DNA from: a virus
Virus record (IMG/VR): IMGVR_UViG_3300030329_001755
Span: 1 to 33,343 of that record
Length of the DNA: 33,343 nt
Strand: one strand, 5' to 3'
Positions within the stretch are counted from its first letter, which is position 1, and each line of letters starts with the position of its first letter. Below the pieces are notes generated by a model that ran no database searches, had not been told where the DNA came from, and saw only the letters and a program-made list of their open reading frames with translations. The translations under genes were made by a program, and so were the position numbers. Of this stretch, positions 6,588 to 24,747 are shown in pieces.

Positions 6588-6614
6588 AATATAATATTTT
6601 ATTTAAGGGGTAAT

Positions 6615-6638: not shown

Positions 6639-6658
6639 AAGAAAACCACCAGGATTAA

Positions 6659-7723: not shown

Positions 7724-7726
7724 AAT

Positions 7727-7743: not shown

Positions 7744-7849
7744 AAGAGAAAAAAAGAAAAAATTGTAAAAGAAATAGAATACTGCTTGGGTCGTAAAGTT
7801 ATCCTCCGCAGAGGGCCAAACACTTACGCTTAATTCTAGGTTTCTAACA

Positions 7850-8554: not shown

Positions 8555-8557
8555 AAT

Positions 8558-10105: not shown

Positions 10106-10111
10106 TTAAGT

Positions 10112-10291: not shown

Positions 10292-10292
10292 T

Positions 10293-10394: not shown

Positions 10395-10395
10395 T

Positions 10396-10587: not shown

Positions 10588-10588
10588 T

Positions 10589-11590
10589 TTATAAACGTAA
10601 CAAGTTTTCTGAAATTAATCCCTGCTTATCGAAGAAGCAGAGACGTTGTACTGGTGCGCCACCTTGGGCTAAAAACTCTTTTGCAAAATCGTTGTCAGAC
10701 TCAGGGCTTCCGCTTAAAAAGAAGTACAAATCGTTATTTAAAACACCAGAAGCGTGTGTGTGGTGGTGACCTACTGACAAATAATTCCAATCATCAATGT
10801 TTAATTGCCATCCCATAGCCTTCTTAAAAATGTTAGCAAGTGGCAATGGGCTTCCTCCGCGTATCTGATCACCATGTACACAAAGGATTCCGTGGCCACA
10901 CACCACCTGCTTAACATACCAATCGGTTGATATATCCCACGACACCTTGCTTAATCCCGATTTGTCGCAGAGTAATTTTGCAGTTTCATAACTGACAAGA
11001 TCCCAATTGGATTTTCTTGAATGACCTGAATGTTTTAATCCTGTACGTCCGTGATTGCCGTGAACAGCTGCCACTTTAATCTTAGGAACGTAAGAATACA
11101 GCTCACACACGACGTGAGCTATCAATTCAGGCACAGTACGCAACGATTGCGTCCATAGATCGCTGTCAATCTCAAAAGGTTGGCCAGGAAATATCGCTTC
11201 TCCCTCTACCATATCGCCTTGTAAAGCTATATGTAGGACTCTAGGTTTCTCATTCTTCAAGTATCTCTTTACTTCTTCGGTCAATTTGTGGATTCTCTTA
11301 ACAGCTATTTTAGAATTATATGTCGCAGTACGCTTTCCTACTTGCCAATCGGACAAACAAAGCCATGCTTCTACAGGATTCGTCTTCATTTTAGGCGGTT
11401 TCCTAGTAGGCTTTAAAGGTTTTATTCCTTTAATAGCTTCATTTACAGCGTGATTTAGTAGATATTCAGTAGTTTTAAAGTTCTGTATTTTACGACAGAG
11501 TTTTCTTATTTCTGCTCGTAACCGTTTTATTAAATTTACATCATCGTCTATTGATCCTGCCCATTCTTCAATATCAAATTTTTTACCCAT
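10589..11590 (-). CDS. Calcineurin-like metallophosphoesterase
   Basis: 333 aa. Metallophosphoesterase motifs appear in order: LSDWQVGK (D81), LQGDMVEG (G125-D126), VHGNHGRTG (N179-H180), CVHGD (H239) and VGHHHTH (about residues 273-279). The first motif has Gln83 where the canonical D-x-H has His, so metal binding at that site may differ. The N-terminal 60 residues are a charged helix (coiled-coil-like) ahead of the catalytic domain. Substrate is unknown; nucleic acid or nucleotide phosphodiester hydrolysis is plausible. It shares its start (TAATG) with the preceding HTH-like gene, implying a joint function. T7 has no equivalent at this place. Confidence 0.85.
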   Translation of the reverse strand: MGKKFDIEEWAGSIDDDVNLIKRLRAEIRKLCRKIQNFKTTEYLLNHAVNEAIKGIKPLKPTRKPPKMKTNPVEAWLCLSDWQVGKRTATYNSKIAVKRIHKLTEEVKRYLKNEKPRVLHIALQGDMVEGEAIFPGQPFEIDSDLWTQSLRTVPELIAHVVCELYSYVPKIKVAAVHGNHGRTGLKHSGHSRKSNWDLVSYETAKLLCDKSGLSKVSWDISTDWYVKQVVCGHGILCVHGDQIRGGSPLPLANIFKKAMGWQLNIDDWNYLSVGHHHTHASGVLNNDLYFFLSGSPESDNDFAKEFLAQGGAPVQRLCFFDKQGLISENLLRL

Positions 11591-11877
11591 TAGCCAAAAT
11601 TAGCCTTTTCATATTCATCAGGCAATCGGGTATTCATCCAATACCTTAGCCCCTCTGCGGAGTTATAACTCACTCCGTACTGTTCTTTTAACATAGATAA
11701 AAGTGACCTGATAGAAAACGCAGTCTTCTTTTCCGCACGAAGCTTTAAAAGTTTTTTAATAGCTTTGACTGCTTCTGGATTAGAATCTAATTCACTACGC
11801 GAGCTGTTTTTAGTATGATTTTTCGCCCACTCATCTAAAGAAAATGTGGTATCATCCGAATTATCAGCGTCACTCAT
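11590..11877 (-). CDS. Small HTH-like protein coupled to the phosphoesterase
   Basis: 95 aa from the ATG at 11877. The N-terminus is acidic and Ser/Asp-rich (disordered-looking), and the C-terminal half (LLKLRAEKKTAFSIRSLL, then GVSYNSAEGLRYWMNTRL) looks like a small helix-turn-helix DNA-binding domain. An in-frame GTG at 11892 would add five residues but has no ribosome site. It is translationally coupled to the phosphoesterase, so it may recruit that enzyme to DNA, or it may regulate the divergent terminase and virion transcripts. Both roles are inference. Confidence 0.65.
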   Translation of the reverse strand: MSDADNSDDTTFSLDEWAKNHTKNSSRSELDSNPEAVKAIKKLLKLRAEKKTAFSIRSLLSMLKEQYGVSYNSAEGLRYWMNTRLPDEYEKANFG

Positions 11878-11883
11878 AGCGCG

Positions 11884-11913
11884 AGTATACACATTATGAC
11901 AAACAATTTACAA
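11884..11913 (-). promoter_or_regulatory. Possible sigma70-like promoter for the virion arm
   Basis: On the minus strand TTGTAA (11913-11908) and TATACT (11889-11884) are separated by 18 nt. The -10 matches TATAAT at 5 of 6 and the -35 matches 4 of 6. The -10 sits only six bases before the ATG at 11877, which would give a leaderless mRNA, and the elements lie partly inside terS. Treat as weak. Confidence 0.25.
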
Positions 11914-12117
11914 GAATTATTGGCAAAATTGCACGAAGCTGTTGGCAATGAGTTGTTGCAAAGAATTATAACAGGTGATGCTACAAGTGCTGATTTATCA
12001 GTTGCTACTAAATTTTTAAAAGACAATGGTATTAATGTCGATGTAGAAGACAGTCCACCAATTATGAATTTAGTTAAGGAATTACCATTCACTGATGAAG
12101 AAAGGAAAGCAGAGTAA
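11896..12117 (+). CDS. terS: Terminase small subunit
   Basis: 73 aa, short and helical, with the pattern LLQRIITGDATSADLSVATKFLKDNGI that recurs in T7-like phage small terminases (DNA maturase A; T7 gp18, 89 aa). It would recognise concatemer DNA and present it to the large subunit. It overlaps terL by 23 nt. No clear Shine-Dalgarno is visible in the 18-bp divergent gap (11878-11895) shared with the minus-strand HTH-like gene. Confidence 0.85.
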   Translation: MTNNLQELLAKLHEAVGNELLQRIITGDATSADLSVATKFLKDNGINVDVEDSPPIMNLVKELPFTDEERKAE

Positions 12118-13783
12118 AGTAGTAGTTCCAGAAGAACTGAAAGATTTTAGAAACTTTGTATATCTAGCATGGGAACATTTAGGATTACCTGACCCTACAA
12201 AGGTTCAATACGATATCTCAAAGTATCTACAGCACGGCCCAAGGCGTAAAACTATATGTGCATTCCGTGGAGTCGGTAAATCCTATCTAACATCAGCCTA
12301 TGTAGTGTGGAAATTACTACTGAACCCTGATATTAACGTACTAGTAGTATCTGCGTCTAAGACACGATCTGACGATTTCTCTACATTTACACAACGTCTT
12401 ATTGCTGAGATGCCTATTCTGGAGCATTTAAGACCTCAAAAAGGTCAACGTGACTCAAAAATAGCGTTCGATGTAGGCCCTGCATCTGCTGCTCACGCGC
12501 CATCTGTAAAATCGGTTGGAATTACGGGCCAACTTACAGGATCACGCGCTGACATAATTGTAGCGGATGACGTTGAAAGTTTGAACAATAGCGCAACTCA
12601 AGGAATGCGTGAGAAACTTTCTGAGCTAGTCAAAGAATTTGAGGCGATTATTAAGCCTGGAGGAGAGATTACTTTCCTAGGAACGTACCAAACAGAGATG
12701 TCGTTGTACACAGTTCTCCCTGATCGTGGCTACGAAACAAGAATTTGGCCGGCAAGATACCCAGTAGAGAAAAAACTACCACGTTATGGCTCAATGCTTT
12801 CTCCGCTCATCTATGATGAGTTGGCTGAAGACCCCGCGCTCGAAGGTGACCCTACAGACCCAGGAAGATTTGACGATTGGGAACTGAAAGAGCGCGAGGC
12901 TTCTTACGGTAGGTCAGGATTTGCAATGCAGTTTATGCTTGACCCTAGCTTATCGGACGCTGAAAGATATCCATTGAAACTATCCGACCTCGTTGTGATG
13001 GATATTAATTCTGAATTAGCACCTGAAAAGGTCATTCATTCATCAGCTCCTGATAAACAACTTTCTGATCTACCTGTTCTTGGGTTTGCAGGAGACTATT
13101 TCTACCAACCTACGCAAGTCATAGGGGATTGGGTTGAATATAAAGGATCTGTAATGGCGATTGACCCTTCTGGTAGAGGCTCGGACGAGACATCCTACGC
13201 TATAGTGAATGTTCTTAACGGATTCCTATGGGTTCTCGAATGTTCAGGAGTAGAAGGCGGATATCAGGAGAAAACCATGCAAACTCTTGTAGATATCGCC
13301 AAAAAGAACCAAGTTAAGCAGATTCTCGTAGAATCCAACTTTGGTGACGGAATGTTCACTGAATTGCTCAAACCTTACCTACGAAAGACGTACCCAGTGA
13401 CCGTAGAAGAGGTAAGACACCACACTCAGAAGGAAAAAAGGATTATAGACACTCTAGAACCTGTAATGAATCAGCACAAACTGATCGTGTCTCCACAGCT
13501 TATAGAGAAAGATTTTGAATCTACAAAGCATTTACCTCCAGAGAAAGCTCCTCAGTACAGACTATTTCACCAAATGACACGGATTACTAAAGACCGTGGA
13601 GCTTTACTACATGACGATAGGCTTGATGCACTATCTATGGCTGTCCAATATTGGGTAGAGGCCGCTGGAAAAGACGCAGATCAAGCTATAAAAGACGCCA
13701 GAGAAGATAAACTAGATAGAGACTTAGAGAAATTTATGGAAGACGCTGTAGGACATTATCCTAAACCTCCAGTATGGTTCTAA
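12095..13783 (+). CDS. terL: Terminase large subunit (ATPase-nuclease)
   Basis: 562 aa (T7 gp19 is 586 aa). Walker A is AFRGVGKS (K62) and Walker B is IIVADDVES (about residues 154-162, D158/D159). The C-terminal RNase H-like nuclease shows MAIDPSGRGSDE, ILVESNFGDGM and LLHDDRLDALSMAVQYW with the expected acidic residues. It powers packaging and cuts the concatemer. The start used overlaps terS by 23 nt and lacks an obvious ribosome site, suggesting coupled translation. It is on the plus strand, opposite to portal and capsid, which is unusual for a T7-like genome. Confidence 0.95.
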   Translation: MKKGKQSKVVVPEELKDFRNFVYLAWEHLGLPDPTKVQYDISKYLQHGPRRKTICAFRGVGKSYLTSAYVVWKLLLNPDINVLVVSASKTRSDDFSTFTQRLIAEMPILEHLRPQKGQRDSKIAFDVGPASAAHAPSVKSVGITGQLTGSRADIIVADDVESLNNSATQGMREKLSELVKEFEAIIKPGGEITFLGTYQTEMSLYTVLPDRGYETRIWPARYPVEKKLPRYGSMLSPLIYDELAEDPALEGDPTDPGRFDDWELKEREASYGRSGFAMQFMLDPSLSDAERYPLKLSDLVVMDINSELAPEKVIHSSAPDKQLSDLPVLGFAGDYFYQPTQVIGDWVEYKGSVMAIDPSGRGSDETSYAIVNVLNGFLWVLECSGVEGGYQEKTMQTLVDIAKKNQVKQILVESNFGDGMFTELLKPYLRKTYPVTVEEVRHHTQKEKRIIDTLEPVMNQHKLIVSPQLIEKDFESTKHLPPEKAPQYRLFHQMTRITKDRGALLHDDRLDALSMAVQYWVEAAGKDADQAIKDAREDKLDRDLEKFMEDAVGHYPKPPVWF

Positions 13784-13880
13784 TAATAAATATTAAAATA
13801 ATAATATAAATTATTCTCTATTCACTCTCGGAGAAAGCCACCGCGACCCCCAAAATAACATAGAATTTTTAGAATTCTAG

Positions 13881-13950
13881 TAGGGAATATATGAATATTT
13901 TATATAGGGAAATATAGTGCAGTACATTAATAGGAAATATATTTAATATT
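13881..13950 (+). repeat. Three TAGGGAAATATA-like motifs, candidate phage promoters
   Basis: TAGGGAATATATGAATATT (13881-13899), TAGGGAAATATAGTG (13905-13919) and TAGGAAATATATTTAATATT (13931-13950) occur within 70 bp. T7-type polymerases start at GGG or GGA after an AT-rich unwinding element, which these motifs resemble. They could equally be protein-binding repeats at a genome end. No match to the T7 consensus itself is claimed. Confidence 0.35.
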
Positions 13951-14267
13951 CTTGAGATATTAGTAGGTCGGTTATATTAAAATCAAAGCGGTGAGTTTTC
14001 ACACCCTGAGTTGAACAGATTTTTGGTTATTTTAATCTCGGATACTCCCTCTGGGTTTCTCTTTCTCCTTTACTAGAGGTGCTAGTACAGCTAGCGGGGT
14101 GTGGACTTTTTAAAAAACTACATCCCTTGTGATCTATCTCCTATGCATGTAAACGCCCTGGACGATAGGCGAGGCACTGATGTAGTTATACATTCCCTTT
14201 GCAGACTATCTTTAAAGTAGGCCATTCTATTACTATTCTTCCATAAGGGATGGAGGAAAAATTCATC

Positions 14268-14372
14268 ATGGTAGGTAGTCTGTATAGGGCTTATTTTTGG
14301 CAAAAAAATGTGAGCGGGTATAACGTATACGGCGGCCGGCGACTCCCCCCGAGCGGCCTCGGAATGCGCTAG
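14268..14372 (+). CDS. Possible 34-aa ORF with a GGAGG leader
   Basis: An ATG at 14268 opens 34 codons (start MVGSLYRAYFWQ, end PPSGLGMR). A GGAGG at 14252-14256 lies about 11 nt upstream, a good Shine-Dalgarno at slightly long spacing. The peptide is basic and Gly/Tyr-rich and is unrecognised. Its 3' half coincides with the GC-rich hairpin, so this may instead be structured RNA or packaging DNA. Low confidence. Confidence 0.25.
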   Translation: MVGSLYRAYFWQKNVSGYNVYGGRRLPPSGLGMR

Positions 14373-14377
14373 ATCAG
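14368..14377 (-). repeat. Intergenic 10-mer CTGATCTAGC, copy 1
   Basis: On the minus strand this reads CAACTGATCTAGCGCATT. The 13-mer CAACTGATCTAGC is identical to copy 3 near 17731. Function unknown; candidate binding site or phage promoter core. Confidence 0.45.
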
Positions 14378-14569
14378 TTGAAAAATGCACAGGGGGCGGT
14401 CACCTTTTAACGCATCAGACGCAGAATGCGCTGCGCACTTGTTAACAAAACAATTGCACAACACAAACACACGCCGCCCAAATTTTCAGCAGTCTCTTCT
14501 TCTTTTTTCTTATTTTAATAAAAGAGAAATTTTTGTTTAATACATCCTAGACCAGACGATAGCAAGCAT

Positions 14570-14740
14570 ATGAAAACATCTAAAATAATACGCATCCTAG
14601 CTGAAGCCTTTGCGCTCGGCCTACTCATACCGATAGTGATAGTGCTATCAATCGACCTACTCAAATATCTAATGCCTATCTTGGCTGTCTTTGTTTGGGT
14701 CGGGGGCACTTACCTTTTTTGGAGCGATAATAAAAAATAG
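14570..14740 (+). CDS. 56-aa two-span membrane protein, holin candidate
   Basis: An ATG at 14570 opens 57 codons ending in TAG at 14738-14740. The product starts MKTSKIIRILAEAF and has two hydrophobic spans, residues about 10-28 (LAEAFALGLLIPIVIVLSI) and 34-52, with a short linker and a Lys-rich C-terminus. A rho-independent terminator follows 21 nt after the stop, which supports a real transcript end. T7 holin gp17.5 (67 aa) is encoded next to the terminase genes, so a class II holin is plausible by size, topology and neighbourhood. Against this, the Shine-Dalgarno is poor and the gene lies about 790 nt from terL. Confidence 0.5.
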   Translation: MKTSKIIRILAEAFALGLLIPIVIVLSIDLLKYLMPILAVFVWVGGTYLFWSDNKK

Positions 14741-14761
14741 TCTGCTCTACTATCCAACTTG

Positions 14762-14788
14762 ACCGCATCTAAATGGTGCGGTTTTTTT
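14762..14788 (+). terminator. Rho-independent terminator
   Basis: ACCGCA (14762-14767) and TGCGGT (14777-14782) form a six-base-pair stem with a nine-base loop, followed by a run of T to 14788. It ends the terS-terL/two-span gene transcript on the plus strand. Confidence 0.8.
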
Positions 14789-15059
14789 ATGGCCTCAACA
14801 GATCTAAAAGAGGTGCGCGTGATCACGCAAGCCGCTTAAATCTTAAAAGCTCTACTCAAATATAGAGCGATTTAAATAACGTTTTTTCGCCTCACAACAC
14901 CTAAAACATAGGGTAATTCATGCTAAATGAGGTAAAAGAATTCAATAAATATACAGCTGGTCGCTGTCTGGTCTACATTTTTATTGCGAAACACCTATTA
15001 TTAAATTAAAATTTAGGTATTCAAAGGCCTAGAGCCTATTAACTCAAAATAACAAAACA
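14789..15059. other. Intergenic region with palindrome and nested hairpin
   Basis: It holds a perfect 12-bp palindrome GCGTGATCACGC at 14817-14828, a likely site for a dimeric protein. It also holds a nested stem: TTAAATC (14836-14842) pairs with GATTTAA (14869-14875) and, inside, GCTCTA (14849-14854) pairs with TAGAGC (14863-14868). Six T residues follow at about 14882-14887, so this could be a second terminator or attenuator. A host-like promoter occupies the right end. A 29-codon ORF at 14920-15009 is not convincing. Confidence 0.45.
14984..15012 (+). promoter_or_regulatory. Sigma70-like promoter for the 15060 gene
   Basis: TTGCGA (14984-14989), a 17-bp spacer and TAAAAT (15007-15012). 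The -10 matches 5 of 6 and the -35 matches 4 of 6, with optimal spacing. This gives a leader of about 40 nt before the ATG at 15060. It suggests early expression by host RNA polymerase. Confidence 0.5.
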
Positions 15060-15386
15060 ATGTACTACTTAAAGAAAGAACATCAAAGAGCTTTAAAATT
15101 TGCTCTATCGTATGACTCTAAAACTAAAACAGCTCCGCGTCATTTTACAAAAATGATTAATGCTTTAAAAAATGCGCGTGAAAGTGTGTCTAGTCTTATT
15201 GACATAAACAACGACAACCTATCCATGGCTATAGATGAAGAATGTAAGGCGGATAAAAAATTAGTAATGAAAGAAATTAAATATTACGCTGAACAAATTA
15301 AAAAAGATTATTTAAGCTTTATTCTACTTAGTGAAATTATTGAAGCTCTAGAAATAGATTTAGACCTAGAACTAAATCAAAAATAA
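15060..15386 (+). CDS. Hypothetical helical early protein
   Basis: 108 aa, Lys/Glu-rich and almost entirely helical, with no Cys and no membrane segment. It starts MYYLKKEHQRALKFALS and ends with an acidic tail (EIDLDLELNQK). It is a single-gene transcription unit with its own host-like promoter and a strong terminator 17 nt after its stop. Small, independently transcribed early genes in T7-like phages often encode host-takeover or anti-restriction proteins, but nothing here identifies the target. No clear Shine-Dalgarno precedes the ATG. Confidence 0.7.
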   Translation: MYYLKKEHQRALKFALSYDSKTKTAPRHFTKMINALKNARESVSSLIDINNDNLSMAIDEECKADKKLVMKEIKYYAEQIKKDYLSFILLSEIIEALEIDLDLELNQK

Positions 15387-15402
15387 AGGGCTATAAAATT
15401 TT

Positions 15403-15441
15403 AAAGAGGCTAGGGAAATTAATCCTTAGCCTCTTTTTTTT
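15403..15441 (+). terminator. Strong rho-independent terminator
   Basis: AAAGAGGCTA (15403-15412) pairs perfectly with TAGCCTCTTT (15427-15436) around a 14-nt loop and runs into a T-tract to 15441. It ends the 15060 gene. The mirrored A-rich side may also slow transcripts arriving from the minus-strand operon. Confidence 0.9.
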
Positions 15442-15448
15442 ATTTGCA

Positions 15449-15458
15449 CTGATCTAGC
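15449..15458 (+). repeat. Intergenic 10-mer CTGATCTAGC, copy 2
   Basis: It reads GCACTGATCTAGCAAC and lies just past the terminator and just downstream of the minus-strand 43-aa gene. Identical core to copies at 14368 and 17734. Confidence 0.45.
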
Positions 15459-15463
15459 AACTA

Positions 15464-15595
15464 TTATCTATCGCTTATCCATGCAATTAGTAACGTAAAA
15501 AATACGATAATACAACCGCCTACCAAATAGATGAGAGCATGAGATATTAAAAAGATTACTGCCTTTAAAGTTTTAAATATAAAATTATTTACCAT
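15464..15595 (-). CDS. 43-aa single-span membrane peptide (hidden micro-gene)
   Basis: An ATG at 15595, one base after the methyltransferase-like stop (TAAAATG), opens 44 codons to the TAA at 15466-15464. The product starts MVNNFIFKTLKAVIF and is strongly hydrophobic through residues about 12-40 (including IYLVGGCIIVFFTLLIAWI), ending SDR. Coupling to the upstream gene and an almost continuous hydrophobic profile support coding. Function unknown; it is the last gene of the minus-strand accessory operon. Confidence 0.55.
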   Translation of the reverse strand: MVNNFIFKTLKAVIFLISHALIYLVGGCIIVFFTLLIAWISDR

Positions 15596-15596
15596 T

Positions 15597-16415
15597 TTAA
15601 ATTCGGCCTTCAATAGCTTCAAAAATTTCTACAAATAAATCACGCGGTATAGTTGACCTCTCGCGATTACCTTTAACGCCTTGCGTACCTGTTGCGCTAC
15701 CGCGTGGCGCGGGGTCGTGGCAGTTTTGCTTTAGCGTTTCTGGACGGTCTTTTCTTATTGGCTTACACATTGGACGCGGCGTCCAAACTCTCTTTGGGAT
15801 ATTTGTCCAAAGGTCGGTAGGTTTTTGGCGGCGGTACTTATCACCGTATTGACAGTAAGCTATTGTATGTCTAGTAAAATCGTGGATACTATAATCTTTA
15901 AAAATAGGTTCAATAACTTTACGCATCATGCCTCTAGGATTTTCTATTATCCAATAGAACTCAGATTCTCTAACCATGCTGTACATGATAGAAATATGTT
16001 CAATTGTTCTTTCCAACATATGCAAGTGATGTTCTACCTCTTCTGTTTTAGGTTGAGGCGCTTCACCAAAATAACATTTTATCGGTTTTGTCCAATATTT
16101 GCCGATACTTGCTACTGAGAATTTTTGGCATGGTGGGCTTGCCCATAAAAGAGAGCATCCGTCTAATCTTAAATCGGGATTTAATATGTCAACGATATTA
16201 TGTGTACCCTTTTTAATTTCACTTGATGTAGGGCTACTATCATAAGATAGAATTGCATGGCCTCTCTCATGTGCAATTTTTGAACATGAACCTGTACCAC
16301 TAAACAGATCTAGCACATATAAAGATTTAGGATTGTTGACCACGTCATCGTTAGCACCGTCCGCAAAATAGCGATTAAGTGGGCCGTCATTTTTATAATT
16401 AAAATTATGTTTCAT
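15597..16415 (-). CDS. DNA cytosine methyltransferase-like protein
   Basis: 272 aa. The N-terminal SAM-binding motif I is YVLDLFSGTGS (about residues 33-43), motif IV with the candidate nucleophile is ASPPCQKFS (Cys96), and the motif VI equivalent is IIENPRGMM (E158-N159-P160; ENV in classical C5 enzymes). The C-terminal part is short, with little room for a large target-recognition domain, and contains RQKPTDLWTNIP and a basic tail. It probably acts on cytosine, either as a DNA C5 methylase or a related base-modifying enzyme. It overlaps nothing upstream (4-nt gap) and is followed by the 43-aa membrane gene. Confidence 0.75.
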   Translation of the reverse strand: MKHNFNYKNDGPLNRYFADGANDDVVNNPKSLYVLDLFSGTGSCSKIAHERGHAILSYDSSPTSSEIKKGTHNIVDILNPDLRLDGCSLLWASPPCQKFSVASIGKYWTKPIKCYFGEAPQPKTEEVEHHLHMLERTIEHISIMYSMVRESEFYWIIENPRGMMRKVIEPIFKDYSIHDFTRHTIAYCQYGDKYRRQKPTDLWTNIPKRVWTPRPMCKPIRKDRPETLKQNCHDPAPRGSATGTQGVKGNRERSTIPRDLFVEIFEAIEGRI

Positions 16416-16419
16416 TTTT

Positions 16420-17085
16420 TTATACTTTAAATTTTTTAGAATTGATTTTGTTACCGTGTAAAGGGTAAACGATTGTTGTTATTTTTTTAGACCAACACGC
16501 TGTACATGAAGCGCATTTGCCTTTTCTTTCATAAGCTCTACAAATAGAAACACCTTTAGAAGATTTTATGTCTTCTGGACTAGGTGTTATCGTTGAATTG
16601 TAAGAACTATCCAACACAGCGCCGTTAGTGCTATCGCTACTAAAACGGACTACTGCATTATCTAGCGTGTTCATTCTATCCAATATAACTTTTATTTTTT
16701 TATCTTTATATTGTCTAGTTGGTATCCAATGCCGAATATTAGGAGTGGCTTTTAAAACTTGCTCTATCTTTTTTGCTAGATCTGAGCAATAGATATCGCC
16801 ACTATCGAACCAACGAAACAAATTCTTTTTGTTTCGCTTACCCTCTTTATTAATTAGCATGACCATATCATCAACCCAAGTTTCAAGTTTCCAATTCTCT
16901 AAATTGTATGCTCTCAACTCTTTGGCTGGCCGCCATTGATAAGCACCTTGCAAAGCGTAGCAATTACTGCAAGCGTCAACAGGTTTACCATTTTCTAATT
17001 TAGCACTTGGGCAAGTTTCCCATGCGGGCAAGCTCCAAGATTTACAAGGCATTTTTGACGTGCCCGATAGCTTAGGTTTACTCAT
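16420..17085 (-). CDS. GP88-like Cys-rich phage protein
   Basis: 221 aa. Two cysteine clusters frame the protein: CPSAK then ACSNCYALQGAYQW (C25, C39, C42) near the N-terminus, and ICRAYERKGKC-ASCTACWS (C182, C191, C194, C197) near the C-terminus, followed by ITTIVYPLHG. This pattern resembles the phage 'gene product 88' family, whose function is not known to me; metal or cluster binding is likely. A central FRWFDSGDIY segment (about residues 90-99) is also typical. It sits directly before the methyltransferase-like gene, so the two may act together on DNA modification, which is inference. Confidence 0.65.
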   Translation of the reverse strand: MSKPKLSGTSKMPCKSWSLPAWETCPSAKLENGKPVDACSNCYALQGAYQWRPAKELRAYNLENWKLETWVDDMVMLINKEGKRNKKNLFRWFDSGDIYCSDLAKKIEQVLKATPNIRHWIPTRQYKDKKIKVILDRMNTLDNAVVRFSSDSTNGAVLDSSYNSTITPSPEDIKSSKGVSICRAYERKGKCASCTACWSKKITTIVYPLHGNKINSKKFKV

Positions 17086-17266
17086 GGCTTTTTTTCCTCA
17101 TCTCTAGTTCTTGTATATGCTCTTTGATTAAAGATAAATCACCTATCAAATTTTCAACTTTATGAGACAAGTCGCAAGTGTCGCAGAATTTGCCTTCAAT
17201 AAATGAGCTAGGATTTTCTATAGCGTATCCACAATTTGCACATCTCAAAATTTCTTTTTCACTCAT
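17078..17266 (-). CDS. Small zinc-ribbon protein
   Basis: 62 aa. Two CxxC pairs, CANCGY (C9, C12) and CDTC (C28, C31), form a zinc-ribbon knuckle at residues 9-31. A helical, Glu/Leu-rich C-terminal tail (VENLIGDLSLIKEHIQEL) could dimerise as a coiled coil. It overlaps the downstream GP88-like gene by 8 nt and the upstream gene by 4 nt, so the operon is tightly coupled. A nucleic-acid or protein adaptor role is likely; no specific function is claimed. Confidence 0.7.
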   Translation of the reverse strand: MSEKEILRCANCGYAIENPSSFIEGKFCDTCDLSHKVENLIGDLSLIKEHIQELEMRKKSHE

Positions 17267-17637
17267 GCGTACACCTCAACATCATAAGATTCGCGGTGAC
17301 TAGATGAACTTTTTACAGTTCCCTTAAATTCATCTTCTTTAGAAAGTTGCCAAGCCTTACCCCATAAATGGCAATAATCTGCATCATCAATATCATTTTC
17401 TGAAAAGCTAGGCCTAGGTACATTACATTTTTCCATTGCTTCATCCATAGCCATATTAGCATCCGAATAGTCTTGCGTAGCACAAAGAAGATTGTCGTAT
17501 CTTCTTTCTCTATTCTCTTTATTTATTTTCTCTAACTCTTCTTGAGTAAACCACTCTCGAATAATTTTTGAAAATTCATTAGCTATCTGGACTTCTAGAT
17601 CTGTTGACTGAACTATAATTTTTTTTCTTTTATACAT
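17263..17637 (-). CDS. Hypothetical protein, first gene of the minus-strand accessory operon
   Basis: 124 aa. A basic start (MYKRKKIIVQ) is followed by an acidic, helical body (about residues 15-60, EFSKIIREWFTQEELEK) and a C-terminal half with DIDDADYCHLWGKAWQLSKED. No family recognised. It heads the operon that continues through the zinc ribbon, GP88-like and methyltransferase-like genes. Its ATG has no Shine-Dalgarno. A TATAAT lies on the minus strand at 17684-17679, but the matching -35 is weak. Confidence 0.65.
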   Translation of the reverse strand: MYKRKKIIVQSTDLEVQIANEFSKIIREWFTQEELEKINKENRERRYDNLLCATQDYSDANMAMDEAMEKCNVPRPSFSENDIDDADYCHLWGKAWQLSKEDEFKGTVKSSSSHRESYDVEVYA

Positions 17638-17733
17638 GTTATTTTATGGGCAGGCACACGACCGACCCTGTTTGAAATATTATATATTTTTTTACTATCT
17701 ATAATAAGCACTAAAAATAAAAAAAAATAGCAA

Positions 17734-17743
17734 CTGATCTAGC
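17734..17743 (+). repeat. Intergenic 10-mer CTGATCTAGC, copy 3
   Basis: It reads CAACTGATCTAGCACTTTTG, with GCGCATT following closely, as in copy 1. It lies in the divergent control region upstream of the minus-strand operon. Confidence 0.45.
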
Positions 17744-17864
17744 ACTTTTGCGCATTATATATCCCGCGAATTATCTTGCTCTAACACCTGGGCCTATAGA
17801 ACTATAGTGCACAGTGAAATATAAATCCTATTTAATTAAAAAAAGTGCAAAATATTTCCTTAAC

Positions 17865-17964
17865 GTCTGATAATTTATTATTCGGACGATCATGAAAATT
17901 TTAAAAATTCGCCGGATTCGACAATTTTAGTCCGATAACATTTATTTTAGTCCGATGACATTTA
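17865..17964 (+). repeat. Tandem 20-bp repeats, candidate operator
   Basis: Two adjacent units at 17925-17944 and 17945-17964 each read TTTTAGTCCGAT-R-ACATTTA and differ at one base. A degenerate third copy, GTCTGATAATTTATTA, lies at 17865-17880. The 20-bp period is about two helical turns, so bound protein would stack on one face. They sit 35-75 bp upstream of the early promoter, as expected for a regulator site. The wHTH protein encoded at 19918 is one possible ligand. Confidence 0.6.
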
Positions 17965-17999
17965 TTTCTGCTTAACCAGTAAAAATAATAAAAAAAAGT

Positions 18000-18028
18000 T
18001 TGCAAATATATTACCGCACTCTTAAATT
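18000..18028 (+). promoter_or_regulatory. Sigma70-like early promoter
   Basis: TTGCAA (18000-18005), a 17-bp spacer and TAAATT (18023-18028), each matching consensus at 4 of 6. A strong Shine-Dalgarno AGGAG (18046-18050) then precedes the ATG at 18057. It likely drives the early operon that leads to integrase and RNA polymerase. Confidence 0.45.
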
Positions 18029-18056
18029 AGGGGTATGAAGAACATAGGAGAAAAAA

Positions 18057-18515
18057 ATGAATAGAGATACATTAGTAATGGCGTTGATCCTCATAATGAC
18101 AAACGCAATAACTTTCTATTCAGCTAGTCAAATAGCTAAAAAAGAAGCCCCGCCAACTCATAGAGAATTGTTTAACGCAATTGCTCGTTATGAGTCTGGG
18201 GGAGTGGATAATGCGATAGGTCTTGCCGGGGAGCGCGGACGCTACCAGCTCTTGAGAATCTTCCACCAAGATGGTTTAGATCATACGCCGGAGATAGGTG
18301 GCACATATATGGACGTATTAAATCCAGAATATGCGGAGAAGATTATCACTAGCTATATGTTGCGCTATCTAGGCGCGGACGTTTGGAATAATCTAACGGA
18401 TGAAAATATCCGTCTGATACTACGAACATTTAATGGAGGCCCAAAAGGCCCAAACAAACGCAGCACTTACGAATACGGTGAGGCTGTACTCAAAATTTTA
18501 AAGGAGAAAAAATAA
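18057..18515 (+). CDS. Lytic transglycosylase-type lysin with N-terminal membrane/SAR segment
   Basis: 152 aa. Residues about 5-26 form a hydrophobic but Ala/Thr/Ser-containing segment (LVMALILIMTNAITF), like a signal or signal-anchor-release sequence. The lysozyme-like domain follows: ARYESGG with candidate catalytic Glu46, a GERGRYQL motif (about 58-65) equivalent to the G-x-x-Q loop, and RTFNGGPKGP (about 123-132). It should cleave peptidoglycan. It has the best ribosome site of the early arm and shares TAATG with the next gene. Placement at the head of the early operon is odd for an endolysin; alternatives are a virion-associated or entry enzyme. Confidence 0.75.
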   Translation: MNRDTLVMALILIMTNAITFYSASQIAKKEAPPTHRELFNAIARYESGGVDNAIGLAGERGRYQLLRIFHQDGLDHTPEIGGTYMDVLNPEYAEKIITSYMLRYLGADVWNNLTDENIRLILRTFNGGPKGPNKRSTYEYGEAVLKILKEKK

Positions 18516-18910
18516 TGTGTGTGTGCATTGAAGAAGGTAGCTATAGCCAACAAATGATGGTGTTCCCTACTAAAAAGAAAGCTGAAGATTTTATAAAAGA
18601 TTGTCAAAGCCTTGAGAGTAGTTCTTGCGACTTAGTAAATCATGTAGTTGTAACTTATATCATTAATGATGTGAAGCCTCGTGTTGAAAAAGGAGAGGGA
18701 AAAAACGAGGGGCGTTGGATTGTCACTTGGGATTGTCCAGAATGCGAGGAAGATGAAAAGCTTGAATTTATACATAACGTTATGTATGAACTTAAAGATA
18801 AAATTTCATCCTCATATCAAATAGAATTTTTAGAACCCGCTTTAGAATGTGTTAAAGATATCAGAAAGGATAATTGGCGATACAAAGTTGAAGTAGCGGA
18901 GGCAAACTAA
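18515..18910 (+). CDS. Hypothetical early protein
   Basis: 131 aa, with CVC near the N-terminus and four further Cys (including CPEC at about residues 71-74). It is acidic overall, with no membrane segment. It starts MCVCIEEGSYSQQMMVF and contains RWIVTWDCPECEEDEK. Some Cys spacing suggests metal binding, but no known family is recognised. The start overlaps the lysin stop (TAATG) and its stop overlaps the next start in the same way, so it is part of a coupled early operon. Confidence 0.65.
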   Translation: MCVCIEEGSYSQQMMVFPTKKKAEDFIKDCQSLESSSCDLVNHVVVTYIINDVKPRVEKGEGKNEGRWIVTWDCPECEEDEKLEFIHNVMYELKDKISSSYQIEFLEPALECVKDIRKDNWRYKVEVAEAN

Positions 18911-19290
18911 TGAAATATAAGCTCGAATGGTTACGTTATGGGCGCACAAAATACAGGCGTGTAGATATTCCTGAAAAGGTATTTGACTACGCTAAAAAAG
19001 TATGGCCAAAATATGTTGTTGATAAAATGAAAAAGGAAAAAGATGCTTCAGATATTGTTAGCGTAATAATTGAAAAGGCTAGAAATACATGGCATCTTAC
19101 ATGGAAAAGAAACGGCTCAATTGATGAGGGAACTTGTACTGTTGGCTGTGCTATAAAAACGCCTTATGGTTCAATCTATAACACATGGGCGCAAGGCAGT
19201 CTTTCTGCTGATGTAGGATCAAAAGAGGCTGTAGAGTATTTAAAATCTTTTGATATTGATGCGTACTACAATGAAGGGAGCGTGAACTAA
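18910..19290 (+). CDS. Hypothetical early protein
   Basis: 126 aa. The N-terminal half is basic (LEWLRYGRTKYRRVDIPEK) and the C-terminal half beta-rich (NTWHLTWKRNGSIDEGT). The segment 'W-xxx-W' with polar flanks resembles part of the preceding gene (RWIVTWDC versus TWHLTWKR), so the two may be distant paralogues. No function recognised. It is coupled by TAATG on both sides. Confidence 0.65.
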   Translation: MKYKLEWLRYGRTKYRRVDIPEKVFDYAKKVWPKYVVDKMKKEKDASDIVSVIIEKARNTWHLTWKRNGSIDEGTCTVGCAIKTPYGSIYNTWAQGSLSADVGSKEAVEYLKSFDIDAYYNEGSVN

Positions 19291-19568
19291 TGAGCATGAG
19301 CGAATACGAATGCCGACGTGAAGAGGCTACTATCAGTAATGTTAAAATTGATTTAGACAATATCGATGCAACAACTGAAAAAGGCTATCAACACTTTACC
19401 GCTAAAGGTCACGCCGTTTTATATAAAGGTGAAGACTGGGAAGTTGATCTAGAGGTTTTTAACGATACAGATGAAAACCATACTTTTAAAGTAGAAGAAA
19501 ACAATCCAGACTATGACCTAGTTTTTGAACAAATCTACGAATTAGTAGAAACAGGAGAAATACAATGA
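19290..19568 (+). CDS. Hypothetical acidic early protein
   Basis: 92 aa, acidic, predicted mixed beta/helix with no Cys pair or membrane span (one Cys at residue 8). It starts MSMSEYECRREEATIS and ends LVFEQIYELVETGEIQ. The acidic profile is compatible with a DNA-mimic inhibitor, a common early phage strategy, but nothing proves this. It overlaps the next gene by ATGA. Confidence 0.6.
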   Translation: MSMSEYECRREEATISNVKIDLDNIDATTEKGYQHFTAKGHAVLYKGEDWEVDLEVFNDTDENHTFKVEENNPDYDLVFEQIYELVETGEIQ

Positions 19569-19720
19569 GTGAATACAGCGATTTATGTGAAATATGTGAA
19601 AGGGATACGTCATACGGTTCAGGACTTTTTGTCAACCGTATAAGTTCTGATGAAGGTCACATATGCCGAGAATGCTTGGAAAATTTTGAGAAAGAAAAAG
19701 AAGAGGATGAAGATCAGTAA
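19565..19720 (+). CDS. 51-aa zinc-finger protein (hidden small gene)
   Basis: An ATG at 19565, overlapping the previous stop as ATGA, opens 52 codons. CEIC (residues 8-11) and CREC (34-37) form a treble-clef or zinc-ribbon-like pair with an HI before the second knuckle, followed by a very acidic tail (EKEKEEDEDQ). The two CxxC pairs with about 22 residues between them and the coupled start make coding likely. It is too short for default gene-length cut-offs. Partner unknown. Confidence 0.75.
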   Translation: MSEYSDLCEICERDTSYGSGLFVNRISSDEGHICRECLENFEKEKEEDEDQ

Positions 19721-19721
19721 G

Positions 19722-19931
19722 ATGGAAAAAACAGATAACATACTTTTAATGCGCTACGAAGTGGCTTCGGAGCTTGTAAAATCCCTCAACGGAATGGATA
19801 AAGATTGGACTTACAGTATGACACCGCATCAAGTGGAATTTTACTGGTTGTGGTCTGTCGATATTTTTGACGCTGAAGGTAACTATATATCAACTTTTAA
19901 AAAACCAAACGAAAACAATGAAGACGCATAA
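19722..19931 (+). CDS. Hypothetical early protein
   Basis: 69 aa from the ATG at 19722, one base after the preceding stop. In-frame ATGs at 19707 and further upstream are possible but would overlap the zinc-finger gene. Body: MRYEVASELVKSLNGMDKDW then VEFYWLWSVDIFDAEGNY, an alpha/beta pattern with a Trp/Tyr-rich strand. No family recognised. Its 3' end overlaps the wHTH gene start. Confidence 0.6.
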   Translation: MEKTDNILLMRYEVASELVKSLNGMDKDWTYSMTPHQVEFYWLWSVDIFDAEGNYISTFKKPNENNEDA

Positions 19932-20232
19932 TTTAATAAAAATTTTTGAAACTCTGGAAAAAAGAGTTTTAAGTAATAGTTATAAAGCTTTTAAATTGCT
20001 ATTAATTATTATGTCAACTGATCCAAACCCAGTTCATGTGAAAGAACTTGTACGGATGAATGGCACAAGTGCTATGAGAACTAGTAAGCTTTTAGATTCT
20101 TTATGTGCAAGTGGATTAATTACAGTTATAAAGAGTGCTGATGATATGAGAAAAAAAGATGTCACACTTTCTAATCAAGGTAGAAAATTAAAGGAGATTT
20201 TAGAAAATGCCGATTACAAAATTAAAAACTAG
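19918..20232 (+). CDS. Winged-helix (MarR-like) DNA-binding protein
   Basis: 104 aa from the ATG at 19918. A MarR-type wHTH is visible: helices around KAFKLLLIIMSTDP, recognition region VHVKELVRMNGTSAMRTSKL (about residues 38-57), LCASGLITV as the third helix-strand turn, then a wing (SADDMRKKDVTLSNQGRKL). It lies directly upstream of integrase, overlapping it by 26 nt, a usual location for a phage repressor or excision control protein. It may bind the 20-bp repeats at 17.9 kb; that is inference. No Shine-Dalgarno is evident. Confidence 0.75.
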   Translation: MKTHNLIKIFETLEKRVLSNSYKAFKLLLIIMSTDPNPVHVKELVRMNGTSAMRTSKLLDSLCASGLITVIKSADDMRKKDVTLSNQGRKLKEILENADYKIKN

Positions 20233-21196
20233 CTACAAAGCTACGTTAAGCCATAATAATAAAAGGTGGAGGAGGAGCTTTAAAACTTCTGAGGAGGCCA
20301 CTATTTGGGAAGCAGAGTCCAGATTAGCACTTTTAAAAGGTGAAGAACCTACATTAAGCGTAAGATCTAAACCTCAAATGCGTACCTTGCGTGATCTACG
20401 GAATGAAGTTTTTGAGATAAGATGGCAGGGAACTAAGGCTGAGGACAGCCAGCTTCACTACACAAAATCTGTACTAGACATTTTTAGTCCGTCGAGTTTA
20501 ATTAAAAACATAAATCAAAACAATATCGATTTATTAGTTAAAAAATTAAAGGGTATAGGTAATTCTAACGCAACTATCAATCGTAAATTAACATCCCTTT
20601 CTGTGATGATGAACCACGCATTAGATAGAGGCTACATTAACAGCGTGCCTAAAATAAAGAAACTTCCAGAAAACAATGAGGTTGTTGTTTGGTTTACAAA
20701 GGAGGAACAAGAATCTATGTACTCATGTCTACACTCAAACGGTAAAAGCCATATAGCAGATTTAATATTGTTTTTGTGTAACACAGGAATGCGTGTTGGG
20801 GAGGCGTTACAGTTAAAGTGGAAAGATTGTAGCGATCAAAACATACTAGTATTGAAGAGTAAGACTAATAAGCCTAGAACAATACCTCAAAATAAAACAG
20901 TTGCTGAACTGTTAAATAACATTTCAAAGGATTATGAAGGGCCTTTTTACAATATCACTTACGCTGAAACACGTCATGCTTGGGATAAAATGCGTACGCA
21001 GTTAGGTAAAAACAATGTAGAAGGTTGGACTATTCACGGTTGCAGACACACTTTCTGTTCTGGACTTGTCCAAAAAAATGTACCTATTCAAATAGTGGCT
21101 CAGTTGGCTGGTCACTCTGACATACGCACTACTATGCGATATGCGCATTTAAACACTGAAGTACTTGAGAATGCAGTAGGTAAATTAGATGGATGA
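20207..21196 (+). CDS. int: Tyrosine integrase
   Basis: 329 aa with an N-terminal arm-binding-like domain (basic, residues 1-35), a core-binding helical domain (about 60-150) and a catalytic domain. The catalytic set is complete: R196 (TGMRVGEALQLKW), H277 and R280 (HGCRHTFCSG), H303 (LAGHSD) and Tyr312 (TMRYAHL). It would integrate phage DNA by site-specific recombination. It overlaps the wHTH gene by 26 nt and the RNA polymerase start by 8 nt, the arrangement seen in integrase-bearing marine T7-like phages. No attP core was found nearby. Confidence 0.93.
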   Translation: MPITKLKTSYKATLSHNNKRWRRSFKTSEEATIWEAESRLALLKGEEPTLSVRSKPQMRTLRDLRNEVFEIRWQGTKAEDSQLHYTKSVLDIFSPSSLIKNINQNNIDLLVKKLKGIGNSNATINRKLTSLSVMMNHALDRGYINSVPKIKKLPENNEVVVWFTKEEQESMYSCLHSNGKSHIADLILFLCNTGMRVGEALQLKWKDCSDQNILVLKSKTNKPRTIPQNKTVAELLNNISKDYEGPFYNITYAETRHAWDKMRTQLGKNNVEGWTIHGCRHTFCSGLVQKNVPIQIVAQLAGHSDIRTTMRYAHLNTEVLENAVGKLDG

Positions 21197-23561
21197 AATA
21201 GAACTTGAAAAGAAAAATAAAAAGATATCTGAAAAAAGATATCACCAAAAAAATAAAGCCCTCATATCGATGGGGGCTGAATCCCACACTAAAGTGGGTA
21301 AGATTGCAGTAAGCCACGCTATAAACAATTTAATAATCGGTATTGAAGAGTTTCTAGATAATCCCAGAGCTGATAGAGGTAAGAAATACAAAGAATATTT
21401 CAGACTCTTACCTACAGAATTGACTGCGGTATTGATTGCTAGAACTGTAATTAACTCTATATCTCAAGAAAAGAAAAGAGCTTCTATGGCTGTAAAAGTA
21501 GGACGATCTATCGAGCGTGAAGTAGCCTTACAAAAATTTAAAGAGGTTAAGAACTTACATTTTGAAAATCTTCTGGTCGAGCATAAAGATTTAAAAAGCG
21601 AATCTAAAAAAGCGCATCAAATTTTAACCGATGCAAGAATTAAATACGGTTTTAATTATTCAACTTGGGGTGTTAAAACTTGCGGTGCTGTAGGATTAAC
21701 AGCAATAACGATTATGGCTAAATATACTAGCATGATTGAAACGTATGAAAAAACTGAGTTCGGTAAAAAAGTAGGTTATGTTTCACCTACGAAAGGTATG
21801 GTTGAGTGGCTTGATCAAGCCCATGAGCAGAACGCTCTCTCCGAACCTTTGTATAGACCTATGATTAGTCCGCCGAGAAATTGGACAAATAATTTTGACG
21901 GTGGTTACTACCTTGATCAGTTTCAAGACAAGCGGTTAGTTGATGACCGTAAACATTATCACGACAATTTGACAGATAAAGAATGCCCTAAATTGTTTAG
22001 TGCTATAAACCACTTACAGTCATGCCCTTGGTCTGTTAACGAAAAAGTTCTTGATGTAATTAAAAATCTATGGCTTCAAGGTAACGCGATAGCAGGACTT
22101 CCAGACCCTAACAATAGACCTGAACCTGAATGGAATGAAGCTTATAAGGAAAACAAGATGTTAACTAGTATGTATAAATCTGATCTATATATGGCTCGTA
22201 CATTTAATAGTAGAAATGTAGGATTACGTTATAGGTTACAATCATTACTAGAAATCGCTGAAGCTTATAAAAACAGTGTTATGTATTTTCCCTACAGTTG
22301 TGATTTTAGAGGTCGTGTATATCCTATACCCAAAGTTTTACAGCCTCAAGGTGACGATAAAGCTAAGGGTCTTTTACAGTTCTTTGAGGGTAAGCCTATA
22401 GAAAACAACAAACAAGAAGACTGGTTCTACATCCACGGTGCAAATTGTTGGGGTGAAGACAAAGTAAGTTTTGAAGACCGAATAAAATGGGTAAACAAAA
22501 ATGCAAAATTTATAAGAGAGTGTGCAGACAATCCTTTAGATTTTACAAGGTGGGCAGAAGCTGATAAACCTTTCCAGTTCCTGGCTTGGGCTTTTGAGTT
22601 CAGGCAATATCAAAGACTAGGAAGTAAATTTATGAGTCGTATTCCAGTAGCGATGGACGGTTCAAATAACGGCTTGCAGATTATGTCTTTACTTTTAAAA
22701 AATAAGAATATTGCTGAACAAACTAATGTATTGCCTACTGATAAACCTCAAGACATTTATCAGAATCTATCTAACAAATTAATAGAGAGGTTACAAAATG
22801 ATCCTACTAAAGAAAACTTAAACTGGTTACGCTATGGCATTGATCGGAAGCTATTAAAGAAAGCTATTATGGTAGTGCCTTACGGCGGTTCATTTACTAC
22901 TTTATTAGAAATAATACAGTCAGAAGTTTATACACAATCTTTAATAAAAGGTGAGCTACCTTTTAAAAATCTTAGAAAGCATTGTGCAATTTTAACACGA
23001 ACTTTGTGGACAGTAATCAAAGAAGAGCTAGTAGATGCTGTGGATTTAATGATGTGGTTAAAGCAAACTATTAGACCTGCCCTCCACGAAAACATCGAGC
23101 CTTCATTTGTTAGTCCGCTAGGTTTAAGGGTAAATCAAGGATATCGCAATACTAGAAGGCACGTTGTAAGAACAGCCCTGGGGTACAAAATAAAAAGATC
23201 GTGTAATGTTTTAGTAGACACAGATTTTTTAGCTTTTGGTAAAAATTGTAGAAGTATTTCCCCAAACTTCTTTCATTCGCTTGACGCATCCGTTATGCTG
23301 TCAACTGTGGAAAGGATGAAAGGATTAGGTATAAACGCGCTGTCTATGGTGCATGATAGCTTTGCTACTCACGCCCACAACGCGCCTCAACTTTCTACTC
23401 AACTTCGAGAGTCTGTTGTCGAGATATTCTCTGACAACTTACTTGAGAAATTTCAGCAAGACATTAAATCCTTAGTGCCTGATGCTGAGTATCCAGCCGT
23501 ACCAGATCTGGGCGATTTGGATATTAATCTTTTACATAGGTCACGCTATTTCTTTAGCTGA
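21189..23561 (+). CDS. Single-subunit DNA-dependent RNA polymerase (T7 gp1-like)
   Basis: 790 aa (T7 gp1 is 883 aa). Catalytic landmarks: AMDGSNNGLQ with D490 (T7 D537), KKAIMVVPYGG with K557 and Y565 (T7 K631 and Y639), SPNFFHSLDASVM, and MVHDSFATH with D723 (T7 D812). The N-terminal promoter-binding region is shorter than in T7, so promoter recognition will differ. It starts inside the integrase end (8-nt overlap), so it is expressed from the same early transcript. It should transcribe replication and virion genes. Its promoters are not confirmed here. Confidence 0.97.
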   Translation: MDEIELEKKNKKISEKRYHQKNKALISMGAESHTKVGKIAVSHAINNLIIGIEEFLDNPRADRGKKYKEYFRLLPTELTAVLIARTVINSISQEKKRASMAVKVGRSIEREVALQKFKEVKNLHFENLLVEHKDLKSESKKAHQILTDARIKYGFNYSTWGVKTCGAVGLTAITIMAKYTSMIETYEKTEFGKKVGYVSPTKGMVEWLDQAHEQNALSEPLYRPMISPPRNWTNNFDGGYYLDQFQDKRLVDDRKHYHDNLTDKECPKLFSAINHLQSCPWSVNEKVLDVIKNLWLQGNAIAGLPDPNNRPEPEWNEAYKENKMLTSMYKSDLYMARTFNSRNVGLRYRLQSLLEIAEAYKNSVMYFPYSCDFRGRVYPIPKVLQPQGDDKAKGLLQFFEGKPIENNKQEDWFYIHGANCWGEDKVSFEDRIKWVNKNAKFIRECADNPLDFTRWAEADKPFQFLAWAFEFRQYQRLGSKFMSRIPVAMDGSNNGLQIMSLLLKNKNIAEQTNVLPTDKPQDIYQNLSNKLIERLQNDPTKENLNWLRYGIDRKLLKKAIMVVPYGGSFTTLLEIIQSEVYTQSLIKGELPFKNLRKHCAILTRTLWTVIKEELVDAVDLMMWLKQTIRPALHENIEPSFVSPLGLRVNQGYRNTRRHVVRTALGYKIKRSCNVLVDTDFLAFGKNCRSISPNFFHSLDASVMLSTVERMKGLGINALSMVHDSFATHAHNAPQLSTQLRESVVEIFSDNLLEKFQQDIKSLVPDAEYPAVPDLGDLDINLLHRSRYFFS

Positions 23562-24240: not shown

Positions 24241-24747
24241 ATGCAATTTAGTCTTCAACTCTTGCATGAACCTGTCGCAGCTAGTAGACCAAAAGTGACT
24301 CGGTGGTCTACTTTTTACGGCAAACGCTACACGGAGTACAGAGGTGCAGCTCCTGAAGCAATTGCTAAAGCTGTTAAGGTAGCGGGAGTTGAAGATTTTT
24401 TACCTATAAAAGAACACGTCCTTATAGTTGCAATCTATGAGGTCAAAAAACCTAAAACAACAAAACTCGATTTTCCAAAACCAGATATAGATAATTACGA
24501 CAAGGCTCTTTTTGACGCTCTAAGTAAGGCAGGAATTTGGTTGGACGATCACCAAATATTAGCCTCGTTTTCTATGAAACGTTGGGCAAAGAAAGAACCA
24601 TGTACAAAGATAATGATAATGACTCTCAATTCGTCAGGCACATACCCTGCGACAAATGCGGAAGTAAAGATAACGCAAGCTTATATTCAGACGGCCATAC
24701 GTTCTGTTTTGGATGCAACCACCGAGAACCCGGTGAAGGTGAAGTAA
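24241..24747 (+). CDS. RusA-like Holliday junction resolvase
   Basis: 168 aa. The RusA core ends near residue 125 and carries the metal-binding aspartates in DFPKPDIDNYDKALFDAL and IWLDDHQI. It replaces T7 gp3 endonuclease I at the same genome position, and would resolve branched DNA. Residues about 121-168 run out of frame through the start of the primase gene, overlapping it by 148 nt. Typical RusA is about 120 aa, so this C-terminal extension is atypical and could be a by-product of the overlap. Confidence 0.85.
   Translation: MQFSLQLLHEPVAASRPKVTRWSTFYGKRYTEYRGAAPEAIAKAVKVAGVEDFLPIKEHVLIVAIYEVKKPKTTKLDFPKPDIDNYDKALFDALSKAGIWLDDHQILASFSMKRWAKKEPCTKIMIMTLNSSGTYPATNAEVKITQAYIQTAIRSVLDATTENPVKVK

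Follow-up and report, generated by a model that had tools for sequence, protein, structure and literature searches.

Why would a T7-like phage encode a putative peptidoglycan-cleaving protein ahead of its integrase and RNA polymerase genes, and when, in the course of infection, would such a protein act? The question is raised by the IMG/VR record IMGVR_UViG_3300030329_001755, positions 1 to 33,343, a linear fragment of 33,343 nt (called here the window) of a T7-like virus that has integrase and RNA polymerase genes and is known from sequence alone. The initial annotation of this DNA placed a lysin at the head of an early operon, far from lysis-like membrane genes of the other strand, and considered an early role, a place in the virion, or delay of lysis by a signal-anchor-release (SAR) mechanism.

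The lysin gene and its closest enzyme kin

The open reading frame has exactly the extent first given for it, 18057-18515 on the plus strand, and encodes a lysozyme-fold, putatively peptidoglycan-cleaving protein of 152 amino acids, with a ribosome binding site, AGGAGA (18046-18051), 5 nt before the ATG. The motifs first ascribed to the protein are likewise all read from the sequence: the putative catalytic acid Glu46 (codon GAG, 18192-18194), the GxxQ-like motif GRYQ (codons 61-64, 18237-18248) and FNGGP (codons 125-129, 18429-18443). The lysin of the related contig L002 is 94-95% identical; in this one pair dN is 0.032 and dS 0.447, and because dN is so much lower than dS, the gene is judged to be under purifying selection.

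The sole Pfam match near a cut-off is to the SLT family (PF01464; 20.1 bits at E 4.7e-4, marginally short of the cut-off of 21.3 bits), and the lysins of L002 and of Cellulophaga phage Calle_1 also fall below that cut-off. Destabilase (PF05497) gives no row for the window protein at E up to 10; among its relatives, L025-L029 score above the PF05497 cut-off and L003, L017 and L019 below it. A PF05497 scan of 11 records, which failed to pick up the weaker matches of L017 and L019, found the domain in two (G010 and G001) and in none of 14 control genomes. Family profiles retrieve the i-type lysozymes. A profile of ten sequences (five clade members, L025 and four bacterial relatives) matches the i-type PDB sequences 3ab6, 4pj2, 8bbu and 2dqa with E 1.6e-16 to 5.6e-12; these are four of its six matches within E 0.1, the other two being designed repeat proteins (3.9e-5 and 0.011). 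The profile of the five clade members also retrieves i-type lysozymes from PDB, mixed with designed repeat-protein noise.

Comparison of folds points in the same direction, the nearest relatives with solved structures being lysozymes of clams and leeches. The AlphaFold model of the window lysin (pLDDT 86.9) is closest to leech destabilase 8bbw (Z 12.3; 107 residues aligned with an rmsd of 2.8), with 2dqa at Z 11.8 and 3ab6 at Z 11.5, whereas the transglycosylases score below the i-type enzymes (MltC, the best, Z 9.2; Cj0843, Z 9.0). When set against predicted viral structures, the model finds its best match (E 9.5e-8) in an uncultured phage, in a protein that bears the name 'Destabilase'. On these profile and model comparisons, i-type lysozyme, and not the transglycosylase of gp16, is the closest enzyme kin of the lysin. 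Since PF05497 does not match the window protein itself, the lysin is, as judged by its sequence, a divergent relative of i-type lysozymes and not itself a Pfam Destabilase.

It shares with the i-type enzymes (PF05497; 8bbw, 2dqa, 3ab6) the lysozyme fold, a Glu in an ES motif, GxxQ and NGGPxG; unlike animal i-type lysozymes, which have many cysteines, it has none and carries a hydrophobic N-terminal helix. It also departs from i-type lysozymes in the second acid, an Asp replaced by Leu, and in a shortened AGE loop. The transglycosylase consensus is AGxxGxxQ, and the AGERGRYQ loop of the window lysin has the same spacing; this and the lone near-threshold match are what would suggest an SLT-family lytic transglycosylase proper, a rival in enzyme class that fits any role. 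We consider it quite improbable: the family profile and the fold point to i-type lysozymes, and the clade sits in an i-type-like tree beside Asp56-bearing sisters.

One scan, with patterns that include NGGP and the YM stretch, gave 58 viral loci with relatives of the lysin; four of these (L036, L037, L038, L003) belong to clade contigs that had been found before. A search of the phage collection found no relative of the window lysin and none of the L019 lysin; the L025 lysozyme matched seven Cellulophaga phage records there. The small Calle_1 lysozyme (YP_010356583), reached through L025 (32.8%), is described in its record note as 'lysozyme (Destabilise-like protein)'. It resembles the window lysin in its SLT match just below the cut-off, and differs from it in belonging to the Pervagoviridae, in its branch of the tree and in keeping the Asp. 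A table in the Calle_1 paper gives an amidase as the lysis gene (PMC8776804). In the available part of the PhaLP 2.0 text, 'destabilase' domains are mentioned once (PMC13237592), and among the literature matches listed, mostly from outside subscription journals, there were passing mentions of phage i-type lysozymes and no paper dedicated to the class. The family is of interest as a set of kin of the animal lysozymes that have few cysteines or none, and it includes cases in which the lysozyme gene sits with an integrase gene.

The active site and the second acid

Conservation was assessed in 65 aligned cores, 54 of them from the 58-locus scan; six identical ones were dropped, leaving 59 distinct cores, and four open reading frames that start too early (L050, L051, L074, L085) were cut back to the core region. 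Since an N-G/A-G motif served to select each core, residues 126-128 and, in part, Tyr100 are conserved by construction, and so, in part, is FNGGP; Glu46, Gly55, position 56 and Gly61 lie outside the selection patterns. Glu46, which aligns with the Glu of animal i-type enzymes, Gly55 and Gly61 are invariant in all 59 distinct cores, and Gln64 is found in 58. Position 56 is Asp in 55 cores, Leu in two (the window and L002) and Ala in two (L060 and L065). All four have a shortened loop of sequence AGE, in which Glu occupies position 59 (as it does in five of 59 cores overall); in the window, the loop Leu-Ala-Gly-Glu is encoded by codons 56-59 (18222-18233). The two proteins from other branches of the tree that have lost the second acid and have the same AGE loop lie at 4745-5359 of L060 and 493-933 of L065. 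The four Asp56-less sequences fall in three branches of a tree several deep nodes of which have support of 0.17 to 0.24.

Judging from the alignment, Glu59 may replace the lost acid, or Glu46 may suffice alone, as in goose lysozyme, which is reported to work with one Glu (PMC9572377). Because Asp56 is absent, activity of the window lysin is less sure than that of most of its relatives. Asp56 is lost in three branches of the weakly supported tree, and each time a Glu stands in the shortened loop; this offers a natural test of the need for a second acid.

Gene neighborhood in the window and in its relatives

Downstream of the lysin, on the same strand, lie three small genes (18515-18910, 18910-19290 and 19290-19568), each overlapping the stop of its predecessor. 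They gave weak PHROG matches and no Pfam match near a cut-off, and are followed by a MarR-like regulator (19867-20232, true start uncertain; PF12802, E 1.5e-6, over the cut-off), a tyrosine integrase (20207-21196; PF00589, E 1.2e-27) and a T7-like single-subunit RNA polymerase (21189-23561), which in tblastn is about 32% identical to the RNA polymerases of Pelagibacter phages such as HTVC019P and HTVC022P over 100% of the query. The order of these last three genes is common to the window and HTVC019P, where they are annotated as transcriptional regulator, integrase and RNA polymerase. The second small gene, 18910-19290, has a weak match to a PHROG endolysin family (E 0.018); on that match its product might be another endolysin candidate, which we do not count.

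The stretch directly preceding the lysin, 419 nt (17638-18056), has no open reading frame of at least 50 amino acids on the lysin strand. In this gap, at 17924-17963, there is a 20-nt tandem repeat, ATTTTAGTCCGAT(A/G)ACATTT, possibly an operator or attachment site. Farther upstream, on the minus strand, lies a methyltransferase-like gene (15597-16415; motifs recognized by eye, no Pfam match), 44 to 51% identical to genes of four relatives. The lysin is thus first in its operon in the window, as initially annotated, but not in the four relatives whose contigs include the lysin start (L002, L003, L017, L019), in all of which the homologue of this methyltransferase-like gene lies upstream and shares 7 or 8 nt with the beginning of the lysin gene.

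RNA polymerase relatives were found at eight loci, and the lysin is seen in three of those contigs (L015, which is G001, L017 and L019). In each of the three, as in the window, it precedes MarR, integrase and RNA polymerase, the MarR of G001 having been identified by eye; the other contigs (L014, L016, L018, L020, L021) start downstream of the place of the lysin or too near it, and in L016 a different gene stands directly before the integrase. In L025, L054 and L060, the lysozyme reading frame overlaps the end of the primase gene, and in L025 and L054 a polymerase gene is next. Counting L075, there are seven contigs of relatives in which the lysozyme gene keeps company with early or replication genes; gp3.5 of T7 is placed likewise. 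In L075, from another branch, the stop of the lysozyme gene (4316-4948) overlaps the start of an integrase gene (4945-5970), and a T7-like RNA polymerase gene comes next.

On the minus strand, small genes for proteins with hydrophobic segments (30163-31968, with one other open reading frame among them, 31012-31557) are candidate late lysis genes; they have no Pfam match over a cut-off, and their PHROG matches are all of unknown function. The separation of the lysin from these genes, put at about 13 kb in the initial annotation, holds, at 11.6 to 13.5 kb. In T7, the lysozyme is the product of gene 3.5 and the holin of gene 17.5. As T7 and LUZ100 exemplify, a lysozyme encoded far from the holin-like genes is nothing unusual in a T7-like phage. 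T7 gp3.5 and the amidase gp15 of HTVC019P are both lysis enzymes of T7-like phages coded away from the late genes, as the window lysin would be; they belong to Amidase_2, to which the window lysin, lacking that domain, is unrelated. The accessible text on LUZ100 describes its T7-like lysozyme with the replication genes (PMC10134795). Beside the lysis-like genes, at 29713-30087, is a gene for a small HExxH protein matching phrog_1233 (unknown function; E 6e-8).

HTVC019P has all its annotated genes on one strand, whereas in the window the structural genes are opposed to the RNA polymerase gene. Within 1-13783, the structural genes are on the minus strand and the terminase gene on the plus strand. 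An assembly fault is an unlikely explanation, because opposed blocks recur in relatives: terminase and structural genes are on opposed strands in L005, nozzle and RNA polymerase genes in G001, and in L002 terminase and lysin are opposed to the block adjoining terminase. G001 (locus L007) also has continuous gp16-, gp15- and gp14-like genes through to the nozzle, and since it spans that region, the two ends of the window appear to be neighbors between which most of gp15-gp16 is missing, about 5 kb as estimated from the gene lengths of L007. What the window retains are the N-terminal 253 residues of a gp15-like virion protein (2-760, minus strand; no Pfam match; so named because it follows the gp14-like gene, as its L007 counterpart does) and the C-terminal 457 residues of a gp16-like internal virion protein (31968-33341, minus strand; phrog_6651, E 3.2e-19), both genes being cut by the record ends. 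An IMG/VR search with this gp16 C-terminus found no relative. The nozzle protein of the window (1746-5531) has 1261 amino acids against 794 positions in the Pfam model, and its L006 relative has 1447.

Promoters and timing of expression

Scanning 13700-21300 for a sigma-70-like consensus turned up 26 sites, compared with a mean of 26.5 in shuffled sequence; with consensus sites at chance level, the host-like promoter that had been proposed for the lysin is not supported. The nearest plus-strand consensus site upstream is at 17781-17808. An exact 14-nt repeat, TATTAAATTAAAAT, occurs at 14999-15012 (plus strand) and 10393-10406 (minus strand), with 0.01 expected; it also precedes the structural operon in L002 and L005, and may be a promoter of the phage RNA polymerase. 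With no or one mismatch, there is no copy before any lysin in the 12 sequences searched. With two mismatches, nine copies are found against 2.2 expected, one of which, located 215 nt before the lysin (17829-17842), may be a weak promoter.

For related phages, early expression has been described: in LUZ100, a host promoter drives the joint transcription of MarR and integrase, and most of its transcripts end behind the integrase gene (PMC10134795), and in HTVC022P the RNA polymerase, MarR and integrase are expressed early (PMC12753301). A wall enzyme made early would need a brake, and the hydrophobic N-terminus of the lysin would be a natural candidate.

The N-terminal segment

Residues 5-26 (18069-18134) make up a predicted hydrophobic helix, signal-anchor or SAR-like, and residues 3-26 are helical in the AlphaFold model; sequence and model support a wall-cleaving enzyme with a hydrophobic N-terminus, encoded ahead of the RNA polymerase gene. 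On the Kyte-Doolittle scale, hydropathy over 19 residues peaks at 1.76, and eight of the 19 residues are G, A, S, T, N or Q; a weakly hydrophobic N-terminus rich in small and polar residues is a SAR-type feature. Such a segment is present in all five clade members, with maxima of 1.34 to 1.76 (1.34 to 1.63 in the four besides the window). Between L017 and L019, dN is 0.40 in residues 1-33 and 0.054 in the remainder, and the segment stays hydrophobic. In composition, the N-terminus suits an anchor or SAR segment; it is possible, too, that it is a cleaved signal, with SAS-Q at residues 22-25 picked out by eye. SAR endolysins are released on loss of membrane potential (PMC6116005), and we favor a signal-anchor-release delay for the window lysin as well. 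The same source cites a report of a SAR endolysin with a pinholin in the lysis cassette of the T7-like phage phiKMV (PMC6116005); the window virus would be a further T7-like phage with an anchored endolysin, and differs from phiKMV in that the phiKMV gene lies in the lysis cassette.

Other wall enzymes and the gp16 question

The initial annotation had noted that the large internal virion protein of the window lacks the transglycosylase domain of T7 gp16. That none is seen there stands, but the statement misleads, as the window lacks the part of the gene able to carry the domain, and the contrast with T7 is weak, as the copy in HTVC019P (gp37, gp16-like) has no transglycosylase by sequence either. 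The longer gp16-like proteins of L007 (1749 amino acids), L005 (1388) and L006 (1068), the latter two with open ends, have no muralytic match in Pfam or PHROGs. A regular expression for E...GxxQ followed by NxG, which recovered three of three lysozymes tried, finds no pair in the gp15- and gp16-like proteins of L005, L006 and L007, in the gp16 part in the window or in HTVC019P gp37; the nozzle has both elements in reversed order. Absence of transglycosylase from the gp16-like proteins is a statement about sequence: the AlphaFold model made for a 1000-residue part of the L007 protein (pLDDT 40.4) is too poor for excluding a hidden domain.

Four muralytic families (SLT, Amidase_2, Phage_lysozyme and PF05497) were sought across 11 records, all fragments, namely the window and ten related ones. 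SLT appears in two of the 11 (the window and L002), in both cases as the lysin itself, below the cut-off, and in eight of 14 control genomes; Amidase_2 and Phage_lysozyme are found in none of the 11, and in six and four of the 14 controls, respectively. The cultured pelagiphage HTVC019P carries genes of both these families, the Amidase_2 one between endonuclease and primase, the Phage_lysozyme one behind terminase. The endonuclease/primase junction of the window holds no gene, the RusA-like gene (24241-24747) overlapping the primase reading frame. Because the lysin is the one well-supported endolysin candidate seen, lysis is favored over entry as its function.

Role of the lysin

The reading that we prefer, and hold to be somewhat better than an even chance, is that the lysin is a phage endolysin anchored by an uncleaved N-terminus and activated late. 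A small glycosidase of i-type lysozyme kin would be made from the MarR-integrase-RNA polymerase region; its weakly hydrophobic N-terminal helix, left uncleaved, would carry it across the inner membrane, where it would stay bound and little active until late holin-like proteins, for which the membrane genes at 30163-31968 are candidates, collapse the membrane potential, and the lysin is freed or activated. That the protein is an active enzyme, that it is exported, anchored and released, that it serves lysis, and when it acts are all inferred in this scheme.

Export by a cleaved Sec signal, with no control by an anchor, would make the lysin a secreted endolysin. The possible SAS-Q site and the resemblance, by eye, of the L025 and Calle_1 lysozymes to proteins with cleavable signals would fit this, but the aligned L003, L017 and L019 proteins show, also by eye, no common cleavage motif, and a free lysozyme made early would be expected to harm the host before assembly; we take this course to be unlikely. 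A further possibility is a role early in infection or in lysogeny, in which a membrane-held lysozyme belonging with the MarR-integrase unit would serve superinfection exclusion, by acting on the wall near new infections, or envelope preparation. The position of the lysin ahead of MarR and integrase, common to the window, G001, L017 and L019, the overlap of lysozyme stop and integrase start in L075, and early expression of the module in related phages (PMC10134795; PMC12753301) are all in its favor. Yet it would leave no other well-supported muralytic gene for lysis in the records searched, and related lysozymes follow primase in L025, L054 and L060, so that such a role appears rather improbable. 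We give little credence to a variant in which a T7-like, integrase-bearing lineage makes a membrane-held, i-type-like lysozyme as part of an early or lysogeny unit, the second acid having shifted from position 56 into the shortened AGE loop; the wall enzyme would then already be there when infection begins, or in the lysogen, and would act in exclusion or in preparing the envelope besides bringing about final lysis.

As for entry, the suggestion that the lysin is carried in the virion and opens the wall in place of the gp16 transglycosylase is in accord with the lack of that domain, by Pfam and PHROGs, in gp16-like proteins of three relatives. The HTVC019P protein lacks it too, however, the lysin gene is outside the virion operon, and a hydrophobic N-terminus would be ill-suited to packing in the capsid core; we regard this reading as very improbable.
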